From contig NC_013158.1 in assembly GCF_000023945.1 (NCBI RefSeq), positions 2,480,001 to 2,544,000 on the forward strand: a stretch of DNA of 64,000 bases, in the 5' to 3' direction. The notes beneath the pieces are model-generated. The model worked only from the letters and a program-made list of their open reading frames with translations, did no database searches and was not told where the DNA came from. This document shows, piece by piece, positions 15,949 through 23,925 of the stretch (the stretch's first letter is position 1; every line of letters begins with the position of its first letter). The position numbers and the translations under genes were made by a program. The DNA is from Halorhabdus utahensis DSM 12940 (GTDB lineage Archaea; Halobacteriota; Halobacteria; Halobacteriales; Haloarculaceae).

Positions 15949-17586
15949 ATGCAACTACAATGTCGGAATATCCGACGAGCGAGGATAGAGGAAGTCGCCG
16001 CAAGGCGACTGGGCGCGAAATTCTCCCAGCGTAGCGAGGACCGAATTTTGCCAGGATTGTTCGGCGAGCACCCGGCGACCCAGTCACTCGAGTCGCTCTC
16101 TGACGTCGGGCTGCTCGATACGACGCTTCGAGACGGTGAACAGGCCCCCGGGGTATCGCTGTCGCCCGCGGAGAAAGCACACATCGCCAGAGAACTCGAC
16201 GCCGCCGGTATCGACGTGATCGAGGCCGGCAGCGCCGTCACCGGGCCGGGCGAGCGAGAGACGATTCGCCGCGTGACGGAGCTGGATCTCGACGCGACGA
16301 TCACGAGTTTCGCCCGCAACGTCGAGGGTGACGTCGATCTTGCCCTGGAGACCGGTGTCGACGGGGTGCACCTCGTCGTTCCAGCCAGCGATCGCCACAT
16401 CGAGGGGAAACTCTCGGCCACCCGCGAGGATGTCATCGCCGACACCGCTGACCTCGTGGCGTACGCGACCGATCACGACCTCTGGGTCGAGGTGATCGGC
16501 GAGGACGGCTCCCGGGCCGACCTGGATTTCCTCGAGGAACTCATGGGTGAAGCCCTCGATGCCGGCGCGGATCGGGTTTGCTACGCCGACACCGTCGGCC
16601 ACGCCACGCCCGACCGGACGCTGGATGCCGTCTCGCGGCTGGCCGATCTCGGCCCGACGAGCACCCACACTCACGACGACCTCGGGCTTGCGGTCACCAA
16701 CGCCCTGGTCTCGCTGGCGGCGGGTGCCGACCTCGTCCACGGGACGATCAACGGCATCGGCGAGCGGGCCGGCAACGTTGCCTTAGAGGAGGTCGCCATC
16801 GCCCTCGACCACGGTTACGGCGTCGAGACGATGGACCTCACGCAGGTCCACGATCTTGCCCAACTCATCGCCAACAAGACCGGCATTCCGCTGGCCCCGA
16901 ACAAGGCCGTCGTCGGCGAGAACGCCTTCACTCACGAGAGCGGCATCCACACCGACGGCACGCTCAAGGACGAGTCGATGTACGAGCCCTACCCGCCGGA
17001 GAAGGTGGGCCGGGAACGTCGACTCGCGCTGGGCAAACACGCCGGTCGGGCCGGCGTCGAGGCCGCCCTTGCCGAGCACGACGTCGACGTCACCGACGAC
17101 GAACTCGACGCCGTCTTCGAGCGCGTCAAGGACCTCGGCGAGCGCGACAAGCGCGTCACCGACGCCGACCTGCTCGCCATCGCCGAGGACGTCCAGGACC
17201 GCGAGCGCGAGCGCCGGATCGAACTCCTCGACCTGAACACGGTCGCCGGCAGCGGCACACCGACCGCGAGTATCCGCCTGCTCGTCGACGACGTCGAACG
17301 CACCGAGGCCTCGGTCGGCGACGGCCCCGTCGACGCCGCGATGAACGCCGTCGAGGCCGCCCTCGGTCACGATGTCGACTGGAGTCTGGACTCCTACCAC
17401 GTCGACGCCATCACCGGCCAGACCGACGCCGTCGTCACCGTCGAGGTCGAGATGTCCCGCGGCGACCGCTCGGTCACGGTCGCCAGAAGCGACGCTGACA
17501 TCACCCGGGCCTCCGTCGAGGCCATGGTCGAGGCCATCGACCGGCTGGTCGAGACGGAGTCCGGACCGCTGGTCGCTGACGACTAG
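15949..17586 (+). CDS. 2-isopropylmalate/(R)-citramalate synthase family protein
   Basis: A 545-residue HMGL-like synthase. LLDTTLRDGEQAPG near residue 52 is the acyl-transferase signature, THTHDDLGLAVTNAL and GTINGIGERAGN supply the metal-binding histidines and conserved loop, and VGENAFTHESGIHTDG follows. A C-terminal LeuA allosteric dimer domain covers about 405-540, so feedback control by leucine or isoleucine is likely. It condenses acetyl-CoA with 2-oxoisovalerate (leucine) or pyruvate (isoleucine); sequence alone does not settle which. The first 45 residues are basic, unlike homologues, and come from palindromic DNA. The TATA spacing supports the ATG at 15949; a TTG at 16048 is the alternative. 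Confidence 0.85.
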   Translation: MQLQCRNIRRARIEEVAARRLGAKFSQRSEDRILPGLFGEHPATQSLESLSDVGLLDTTLRDGEQAPGVSLSPAEKAHIARELDAAGIDVIEAGSAVTGPGERETIRRVTELDLDATITSFARNVEGDVDLALETGVDGVHLVVPASDRHIEGKLSATREDVIADTADLVAYATDHDLWVEVIGEDGSRADLDFLEELMGEALDAGADRVCYADTVGHATPDRTLDAVSRLADLGPTSTHTHDDLGLAVTNALVSLAAGADLVHGTINGIGERAGNVALEEVAIALDHGYGVETMDLTQVHDLAQLIANKTGIPLAPNKAVVGENAFTHESGIHTDGTLKDESMYEPYPPEKVGRERRLALGKHAGRAGVEAALAEHDVDVTDDELDAVFERVKDLGERDKRVTDADLLAIAEDVQDRERERRIELLDLNTVAGSGTPTASIRLLVDDVERTEASVGDGPVDAAMNAVEAALGHDVDWSLDSYHVDAITGQTDAVVTVEVEMSRGDRSVTVARSDADITRASVEAMVEAIDRLVETESGPLVADD

Positions 17587-21670: not shown

Positions 21671-21781
21671 AGGGACGCAGTCCCTCGAGCAGTCGGACGT
21701 AGTCCGACGACGCCGGCAGGGAGTGAGCGGATTCTTTGAATCCGCGAACGCCGATCGACGGCGTCGATCGGAATGTGAACC
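21671..21781. repeat. Hairpin array and left copy of a 65-bp direct repeat
   Basis: Four perfect triloop hairpins run in series: 21671-21676/21680-21685, 21692-21698/21702-21708, 21727-21734/21738-21745 and 21752-21759/21763-21770. Bases 21717-21781 recur at 23507-23571 with two mismatches and include the last two hairpins. A looser 8-bp stem is at 21616-21623/21635-21642. The repeats bracket the DUF234 ATPase. The whole intergenic stretch 21533-21886 contains no gene that I can recognise. Confidence 0.75.
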
Positions 21782-21886
21782 TTCCGAGAGCAGCGATGCC
21801 GCACTTGCCGTGGCGGTATGAATCTACGTTTGACGTTGCGGCTGGGGAAACTATAAGTCATTATCGCAGTAATCATTATCTAGAGT

Positions 21887-23269
21887 ATGACCTTCCACGA
21901 CCGAGCGGAGGAAATCGACGCCCTCGAAACGGCGTTCGAGTCACCGGGCCACGGCTTCTACGTGGTCTACGGTCGGCGTCGCGTCGGGAAAACCGAACTC
22001 CTCAAAGAGTTCTGTGCCGACCGATCCCACATCTACTTCCTCGCGGCCCAGGAAGCACAAGACCGCCAGCGCGAGAAGTTCATCGAGAAGGTCGCTGATT
22101 ACTTCGACGATCGTGTTCCCCGTATCGACGGCTGGGACGAGGCCTTTGCGTACCTCGGCGAGAAACTAGCGACTGAACAACTCGTCATCGCCATCGATGA
22201 ATTCCCATATCTCGTCGAGGAAAACGACTCCCTCCCGTCTTACCTCCAGTCGTTCGTCGATGAACAACTCACGGACACTGAGTCGATGCTTGTGCTATGT
22301 GGGTCCAGTGTGAGTACAATGGAGTCAGCGGTGCTCGGTCACGAAAGCCCGCTGTATGGCCGCCGGACGGGACAAATTGACGTCCAGCCGTTTTCGTTCC
22401 AACAGGCCCAGGATATCATCGCTGACGATATCGAGGACGCAATCCGGTCGTTTGCTGTCACGGGTGGCACGCCGATGTATCTCACCCTTTTCGACTATGA
22501 CCACTCTCTCAAGGAGAACATTCAGACCCATGTTCTCTCCCCGACGGCCCGTCTCTACAACGAGCCCGAGTTTCTGCTCCGCACCGAGCTTCGGAACCCC
22601 GCTCGATACATGAGTATTCTCGAATCAATTGCGACCGGTCACACGACGCCCAACGAGATCTCGGGAGCGACCGGCATCGATGTCGGCCCACTGTCGAAGT
22701 ATCTCCAGACGCTTCGGCGACTGCGGCTGATCGACCGCGAGGTGCCAGTGACGGCGTCACCAAAGCAGTCCAAGCGGTCGCGATACCAGGTCGCTGACGA
22801 GTTCCTCCGGTTCTGGTTTCGATTCGTCGAGCCGAATCGCTCCAGTATCGAAGAAGCACCCGACATCGTCTACGAGGGAACGATCGAGCCGAACCTCCCT
22901 GACCACGTCGCAACGACGTTCGAGGATGTCTGTCAGGAGGCCGTCTGGGAAGCGATCCGTCGTGGCGAATTCGGGCCGTATTCAGCGGTTGGGCGGTGGT
23001 GGTACGGCGAAGACGAAATCGACATCGTCGGACTCGCCCCGGATGCCGACCGGATTCTGCTTGCAGAATGTAAATGGACGACCCAGCCTGTTGGCCACTC
23101 ACTCGTTTCACAGCTCCAGGAGAAAGCAGCTCGTGTTCGATGGGGGCCGGACACACGAGATGCGGAATTCGCGTTGTTCTCGAAGAGCGGGTTCGTTGAT
23201 GGGCTCGCTGCGGACGTCGGCGACAATTGGTCGCTGTTTAGTCTGCGTGAGCTGGCGGCAGTTCTGTAG
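21887..23269 (+). CDS. Archaeal AAA-type ATPase with DUF234 domain
   Basis: A 460-residue protein. Walker A is VYGRRRVGKTELL at residues 26-38, Walker B is LVIAIDEFPYLVE near 103, sensor LVLCGSSVSTME near 140. A winged-helix region (TGIDVGPLSKYLQTLRRLRLI) near 265-285 joins to a C-terminal DUF234 domain with a PD-(D/E)XK-like pattern (EIDIVGLAPDADRILLAECKW), so a nuclease core is plausible. Such ATPases are frequent in archaeal mobile regions. It lies between copies of a 65-bp repeat, close to a tRNA-Glu gene, which supports acquisition as a cassette. Function is unknown. Confidence 0.85.
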   Translation: MTFHDRAEEIDALETAFESPGHGFYVVYGRRRVGKTELLKEFCADRSHIYFLAAQEAQDRQREKFIEKVADYFDDRVPRIDGWDEAFAYLGEKLATEQLVIAIDEFPYLVEENDSLPSYLQSFVDEQLTDTESMLVLCGSSVSTMESAVLGHESPLYGRRTGQIDVQPFSFQQAQDIIADDIEDAIRSFAVTGGTPMYLTLFDYDHSLKENIQTHVLSPTARLYNEPEFLLRTELRNPARYMSILESIATGHTTPNEISGATGIDVGPLSKYLQTLRRLRLIDREVPVTASPKQSKRSRYQVADEFLRFWFRFVEPNRSSIEEAPDIVYEGTIEPNLPDHVATTFEDVCQEAVWEAIRRGEFGPYSAVGRWWYGEDEIDIVGLAPDADRILLAECKWTTQPVGHSLVSQLQEKAARVRWGPDTRDAEFALFSKSGFVDGLAADVGDNWSLFSLRELAAVL

Positions 23270-23506
23270 CCGAACTCCTCCCGTTCCGGAAAACGAATCG
23301 GCGCTTGTTCACGAGATACGTGAGTGAGGACGTGATGTGTTCGATGCCGCGCGGAATAGTGTTCGAATATGGGCGTGGATGGAGTGGGCGACGCTGAAAT
23401 CGCTCGGCAGTTTCGGTCCCGCGACTCGTTGGGCGCGACTGGACCTCCTCTACATCCCGCTGTCCATCCCTTCTTCGTGACTTCGTTCCTCAGAAAAGTG
23501 CTCCGA

Positions 23507-23571
23507 CAGGGAGTGAGCGGATTCTTTGAATCCGCGAATGCCGATCGACGGCGTCGATCGGAATTTGAACC
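23507..23571. repeat. Right copy of the 65-bp direct repeat
   Basis: Matches 21717-21781 with two mismatches and keeps both triloop hairpins. It begins next to a degenerate copy of the tRNA-Glu 3' end (AGTGCTCCG at 23497) and ends in the T-arm-like TTTGAACC. From 23270 to 23850 I see no gene, only repeats and palindromes. Confidence 0.75.
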
Positions 23572-23684
23572 GAGTGGAGACGTTCCGGGGTGCTCACTTC
23601 GTTGGCTCGCGGCTCCGCCGCTCGCCGTTCCGAGACGCTTCCTTCGGTCGCGTCTCGCTGCGCTCCCGGGACTGCGACTCCCCA

Positions 23685-23872
23685 GGTTCAAATCCAAATC
23701 GAGCATTGCTGCTCACGAATTTGTTCGCAGCAAAGTGCTCCGGCAGGGATTTGAACCACGCCCAGACGTGCTCGCTTCGCTGCGCGCGACTGGTCTACTT
23801 CAAATCCCTCATGCCGCATTCGTCGCTCGCGACATTGCGAGCGACAGAAGTGCTCCGGCAGGGATTTGAACC
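23685..23872. repeat. Alternating tRNA-Glu T-arm repeats
   Basis: The 24 bases at 23734-23757 are identical to 23849-23872, which is the 3' end of the tRNA-Glu gene. T-arm sequence in the opposite orientation occurs at 23685-23695 and 23799-23809, so direct and inverted copies alternate. A 9-bp hairpin lies just upstream of the tRNA (GTCGCTCGC with GCGAGCGAC). These look like tandem attachment-site scars. Confidence 0.7.
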
Positions 23873-23925
23873 CTGGTCCTTGCCGTGAGAGGGCAAGATG
23901 ATTGGCCGGACTACACCACCGGAGC
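23851..23925 (-). tRNA. tRNA-Glu(CTC)
   Basis: On the minus strand the acceptor stem GCTCCGG pairs with CCGGAGC, followed by an A discriminator. The anticodon stem TTGCC/GGCAA closes a CTCTCAC loop with CTC anticodon, and the T-arm contains GGTTCAAATCC. All arms are complete in 75 nt, with no intron and no encoded CCA. It decodes GAG, the most used Glu codon in this GC-rich genome. Confidence 0.93.

Follow-up and report, generated by a model that had tools for sequence, protein, structure and literature searches.

The stretch analysed here (the window) is 64,000 nucleotides long and covers positions 2480001-2544000 of the genome of Halorhabdus utahensis DSM 12940 (NC_013158.1, referred to as G000), a single contig of 3,116,795 bp. 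It contains a gene for an AAA ATPase with a DUF234 domain that is enclosed by two direct repeats and lies near an intact tRNA-Glu gene. A preliminary description had placed 65-bp repeats with two mismatches at 21717 and 23507, two perfect triloop hairpins in each copy, and a single gene between them. The repeats are real and extend to 69 bp, both hairpins are present in both copies, and open reading frames (ORFs) and profile matches agree on the single gene. The repeat pair consists of the following features.

21713..21781, plus strand: left (distal) repeat copy, from repeat comparison and from the empty site of a congener (G072), where it is present once
21727..21745: hairpin 1 of the left copy (right-copy counterpart 23517-23535)
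21751..21771: hairpin 2 of the left copy (right-copy counterpart 23541-23561)
21672..21712: double-hairpin insertion of 41 bp beside the left copy, missing from G072 in the alignment
23503..23571, plus strand: right (proximal) repeat copy, read as a split tRNA-Glu 3' end with two hairpins between the T-loop and the 3' T-stem

The two copies are 96% identical and 1790 bp apart. Two of their mismatches fall in the 65 bp described earlier and one in the preceding 4 bases. Hairpin 1 of both copies is GCGGATTC-TTT-GAATCCGC and hairpin 2 is CCGATCGAC-GGC-GTCGATCGG. With up to two mismatches allowed, hairpin 1 occurs at two sites in the window, where 0.15 are expected, and these sites are the two repeats. 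The full 69-bp repeat has exactly two copies in the whole genome (3.12 Mb), which rules out a dispersed mobile repeat. A chance pairing of the repeats is ruled out by the rarity of hairpin 1 together with an empty site in the congener. G072 has the same flanking genes (a bfn-like nuclease gene, and a helix-turn-helix gene beside tRNA-Glu) and the tRNA-Glu gene itself, with one 69-bp copy that is 93% identical and no DUF234 gene. The hairpin loops TTT and GGC are common to both G000 copies, whereas the G072 copy has other triplets, indicating that the G000 copies derive from each other.

What is the repeat? On the plus strand it reads as a split copy of the tRNA-Glu 3' end, CTCCGrCAGGGA ... TTTGAACC. 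In tRNA-Glu orientation, GGTTCAAAT is followed by a two-hairpin insert and then by TCCCTGyCGGAGCA. In other words, the repeat is the T-arm and acceptor end of tRNA-Glu, split after the T-loop by the insert. Relatives of the repeat, detected by sequence search and a covariance model, are present in 104 of 146 genomes of the family. A tRNA lies within 1.5 kb of 41 of the 45 best relative loci (Glu, Gly, Lys, Leu, Arg, Ser, Asp, and Ala), a figure to be read with the knowledge that the covariance model contains T-arm bases and is hence biased to tRNA sites. The match of the acceptor side to the neighbouring tRNA is not built into the model. On average, 12.6 of 14 positions of a split end agree with its own tRNA, compared to 8.8 for shuffled tRNAs (maximum 9.6 in 1000 shuffles). 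The two-hairpin insert also covaries, with 97.3% of cells paired and both partners changed in 9 of 17 pairs (0 of 500 shuffles). Because the relatives sit beside tRNAs and their acceptor side matches that tRNA, the repeat is the end of a unit and the gene is best read as its cargo; the repeat as an independent terminal repeat that bounds a cassette is not supported. A scan of named genomes for the split pattern gave 25 stretches, of which six were haloarchaeal and the remaining GC-rich bacterial ones were judged to be chance.

Interrupted tRNA copies were seen elsewhere as well. An interrupted full-length tRNA-Ser copy with a hairpin insert in the T-loop lies upstream of intact tRNA-Ser(GGA) at five loci in several genera (L095, L099, L106, L107, and L147), and in L095 and L147 about 10 nt are missing near the anticodon arm. 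At L101 (G119), the first of two tandem tRNA-Arg(TCT) genes has a two-hairpin insert in its T-loop.

The repeats belong to a larger arrangement headed by the tRNA-Glu gene.

23850..23925, minus strand: intact tRNA-Glu(CTC) gene, head of the array (ARAGORN; Rfam RF00005, 54.5 bits)
23735..23849, minus strand: array unit 1, 115 bp, with trailer hairpin, inverted T-arm TTCAAATCCC (23799-23808), hairpin, and tRNA-Glu 3'-end copy (23735-23757), from sequence comparison and folding
23498..23734, minus strand: array unit 2, 237 bp, with trailer hairpin, inverted T-arm (23685-23695), long hairpin, and a split T-arm/acceptor copy at its end
21713..23497, minus strand: cargo unit, 1785 bp, with trailer hairpin, dispersed-repeat remnant, DUF234 gene, and split end
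23468..23497, minus strand: trailer of tRNA-Glu type, CTTTTCTGAGGAACGAAGTCACGAAGAAGG, with which the cargo unit begins
23382..23436: piece of a repeat dispersed in haloarchaea, located within the cargo unit, with matches at several places in G000, G046, G059, G072, and others

The "tRNA-Glu remnants" noted earlier beside the right copy were correct and understated, as there is an exact 3'-end copy in addition to the intact gene, and the repeat itself is a further, split copy of that end. The last two units of the array end in the split T-arm variant. In tRNA orientation, the cargo unit runs from trailer through dispersed-repeat fragment, gene, and the gene's promoter to the distal split end. 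A match of the trailer CTTTTCTGAGGAACGAAGTCACGAAGAAGG lies directly 3' of intact tRNA-Glu genes in two further genomes (G005 and G064).

Such arrays are not confined to tRNA-Glu. We counted copies of a tRNA's own 3' end (14 nt, one mismatch) within 600 bp. Downstream copies follow 16 of 42 tRNAs in G000 and 19 of 31 in G072 (together 35 of 73). In the small samples outside the genus, they follow 7 of 26 tRNAs of other haloarchaea and none of the 25 sampled from the phylum's other classes. Upstream of the tRNAs in G000, G072, and the other haloarchaea, cognate copies were found in 0 of 99 cases, and non-cognate tRNA ends reached 0.4-1.7% in the same count. The pair at this locus is one case of an array type widespread behind haloarchaeal tRNA genes. 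No description of such arrays was found in the open-access literature (subscription journals were not covered), and they are apparently an undescribed kind of repeat array.

The array units have a mean length of 135 bp and a common plan, in which a trailer hairpin is followed by an inverted T-arm, a hairpin, the T-arm, and the acceptor. The inverted T-arm is present in 34 of 44 units, compared to 0.28 in shuffles. Two loci, L150 (G091) and L191 (G000), have units in which an inverted acceptor replaces the inverted T-arm, and at L150 three near-identical copies lie in tandem, ~74 bp apart. An array-like hairpin module also occurs among the 23 predicted tRNA genes of the Haloarcula halophila plasmid NZ_CP119561.1 (L338), which lie beside a PolB gene and a TROVE-domain gene.

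RNA folding of 30 units gave a mean minimum free energy z of -3.8 against mononucleotide shuffles. Such strong folding, the covariation of the split ends, and the retention of interrupted copies upstream of tRNA-Ser(GGA) in several genera would suit units that have a role as RNA or that signal the processing of tRNA transcripts, such as decoys for the enzymes that act on tRNA 3' ends, with the DUF234 insertion being incidental. We regard this as unlikely, because the number of units varies between congeners and many tRNAs have no units. Nor does any Rfam family match the array units at the gathering threshold; the only Rfam matches were to tRNAs and leuA. The latter is the leuA-Halobacteria cis-regulatory RNA (RF03001) at 15974-16026, at the start of a leuA-like gene.

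Evidence that units come and go as units comes from a comparison of the two congeners. The tRNA-Asn locus has 0 vs 160 bp and the tRNA-Pro locus 0 vs 127 bp, with exact ends, and the tRNA-Val array has three units in one congener and one in the other. The flanks of present or absent units align from position 0, and the units end exactly at the tRNA 3' end. One possibility is that homologous recombination or slippage accounts for all of this. Unequal crossing-over between tRNA-end copies would change the number of units, and a gene piece would have been inserted and the 65-bp end duplicated with no site-specific enzyme. Repeats of 14-69 bp are at hand, the window has no recombinase, and the G072 tRNA-Glu unit appears chimeric, as if made from two G000 units. 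In addition, repeat-mediated deletions have been reported in Haloquadratum, including two at partial tRNA duplications of 43 and 22 bp (PMC3119063). However, local duplication predicts that a unit should most resemble its neighbours, and the reverse was found. At E<1e-4, unit bodies matched in 88 pairs between different tRNAs vs 8 pairs behind the same tRNA. Local duplication alone is therefore insufficient, and we hold the recombination-only explanation to be possible and somewhat improbable.

The cargo gene brings evidence of its own.

21887..23269, plus strand: cargo gene, AAA ATPase with DUF234, 460 aa, PADLOC candidate PDC-S27 (ORF and profiles)
21846..21886, plus strand: conserved promoter/operator-like stretch ATAAGTCATTATCGCAGTAATCATTATCTAGAGT (ATAAGTCATTATC..TAATCATTATC) that travels with the gene

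The protein matches the ATPase_2 (E 1.5e-28) and DUF234 (E 4.7e-25) profiles. The PDC-S27 profile, which combines the two, covers most of the protein (residues 5-355, E 4.5e-55), so that the gene is a candidate for an anti-virus role. The promoter/operator-like stretch is conserved 5' of DUF234 genes across genera, and gene and promoter together (21846-23288) have counterparts on plasmids of other genera that match at up to 85%. A DUF234 transposon to which the repeats belong is ruled out, because the plasmid relatives share gene and promoter only and, past the promoter, close homologues have no flank in common. A homologue in G123 with 77% amino acid identity lies in a 3.7-kb segment between tRNA-Phe 3'-end copies, beside an array unit. 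The segment also contains a GTPase-like ORF, and it has no evident recombinase ORF. Two tRNA-end-flanked cases among the ten closest DUF234 homologues examined are suggestive, and not statistically strong.

Which enzyme could move such units? The Pfam phage-integrase profile (PF00589) has five matches in the genome and none in the window, which supports the earlier picture of a compact unit of ~1.8 kb that carries no recombinase. For the same reason, mobilisation in trans and homologous exchange are the live options, in line with the routes proposed at the time (mobilisation in trans or repeat-mediated duplication). Indirect evidence for mobilisation in trans comes from tRNA-Ala(CGC), where a 16.6-kb element lies between the tRNA and its array (G000:C1:771704-788348; L200, L211, L278). 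The element is missing from G072, which has an empty site, and its bounds are formed by CCCCGCGAGTCCA, the 13-bp acceptor end with which the tRNA-Ala array units also close. It contains an ORF of 351 aa that is a putative tyrosine recombinase, given a weak Pfam match (23 bits, below the curated cut-off of 27.1) and its place at the attR side. Because element and units share the acceptor end, the unit ends appear to be of the kind used by integrases of this group, and we infer that such an integrase acts on array units in trans.

The arrays could be read differently, with the units being collapsed remnants (attachment-site scars) of viruses or plasmids that integrate at tRNAs, and the DUF234 segment a less decayed one. 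An intact element at the tRNA-Ala array and the extra GTPase-like ORF in the G123 segment would fit this, as would the fact that duplicated tRNA 3' ends are a mark of tRNA-targeting integration, for example as attL and attR of Haloquadratum genomic island 3 (PMC3119063). Scars should consist of random element sequence, yet the units have a fixed plan, strong folding, and covarying stems in their split ends. Furthermore, no phage record matches the array and viral contigs lack the common motif, results that also speak against carriage of the units by viruses. The scar explanation is accordingly doubtful. Three viral contigs have the split pattern, and no tRNA is present in any of them.

The explanation we favour, and think rather probable, is that a tandem array of palindromic units lies behind tRNA-Glu and that the DUF234 gene is cargo exchanged via the unit ends, with a tyrosine recombinase acting in trans as the first choice of agent. 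Each unit is short, non-coding, and palindromic and closes with copied T-arm and acceptor sequence of the tRNA that it follows. In one unit, the place of most of the body is taken by the DUF234 gene, which may form an anti-virus system by itself. This anatomy was observed, as were the single-copy empty site in the congener, the presence or absence of plain units with exact ends, and the use of the same acceptor end by the 16.6-kb element at tRNA-Ala. Recombination between cognate ends would add and remove units, the cargo unit among them. The enzyme would probably be a tyrosine recombinase encoded by a mobile element with that tRNA as its target, and RecA-type recombination between the 65-bp copies would be the fallback. 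In the exchange, the acceptor of the unit would move onto the tRNA, and only matching ends would leave a working tRNA. The proposed placement of the unit's acceptor on the tRNA would be why ends stay cognate. This explanation and its rivals are not fully exclusive of one another.

Several points weigh against the favoured explanation. The final acceptor bases are missing from the left copy (CCGG is followed by the 41-bp hairpin insertion), which makes it an imperfect core, and the shared identity of 69 bp exceeds what an integrase core needs and would serve homologous recombination too. The direction of change is unproven, because G072 could have lost the cargo, and gain and loss are indistinguishable from G072 alone. 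The plasmid copies match only the gene with its promoter and exclude the repeats; the cargo gene may thus have come by another route. Finally, recombinase action on any unit end is something that we infer.

An odd repeat pair thus becomes one case of a class-wide feature, in which structured tRNA-end copies are stacked behind many haloarchaeal tRNA genes. The arrays pose a puzzle, since units behind different tRNAs have bodies in common and yet each has an end that fits the local tRNA. Should the ends function as attachment sites, the host would have several places for integration that leave the tRNA unharmed, and single defence genes could be taken up and lost without a recombinase of their own. 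A broader and quite tentative proposal is a haloarchaeal cassette system that uses tRNA 3' ends as its platform. Folded units, mostly empty and some with a gene, would be inserted, exchanged between tRNAs, and stacked by a recombinase in trans, with their ends rewritten or selected to fit the recipient tRNA.

How do the arrays compare to known systems? PATEs are short hairpin elements covered in PMC3119063. Like PATEs, miniature inverted-repeat transposable elements (MITEs), and repetitive extragenic palindromic (REP)-type sequences, the units are short non-coding hairpin elements in many copies, but they lie in tRNA 3' flanks and are bounded by cognate tRNA-end copies. An element derived from a MITE or an insertion sequence would have terminal inverted repeats, a short target duplication, and many unrelated sites, whereas the full repeat occurs only twice and its relatives lie beside tRNAs. 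An archaeal tRNA intron in the T-loop would have a bulge-helix-bulge splice motif and lie in an otherwise functional tRNA gene; the inserts here are in partial copies or in copies beside an intact gene.

The attC sites of integron cassettes are imperfect folded palindromes with the core pair RYYYAAC / GTTRRRY. The likeness lies in a one-gene unit by a tandem array and in imperfect folded palindromes whose recombining end has a variable hairpin. The core here, read by eye, is GTTCAAA, whose fourth base is C, and so departs from GTTRRRY. The arrays also differ in that no integron integrase lies nearby (the window has no PF00589 match), most units are gene-free, and the ends copy the local tRNA. 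Integrative elements that target tRNAs encode an integrase, whereas the cargo unit has a single gene and none, and the array units are ~135 bp, non-coding, palindromic, and in tandem, with the flanking repeats split by two hairpins. Ends made from the tRNA 3' end, a single copy at the empty site, and a tRNA that stays intact are all shared with these elements.
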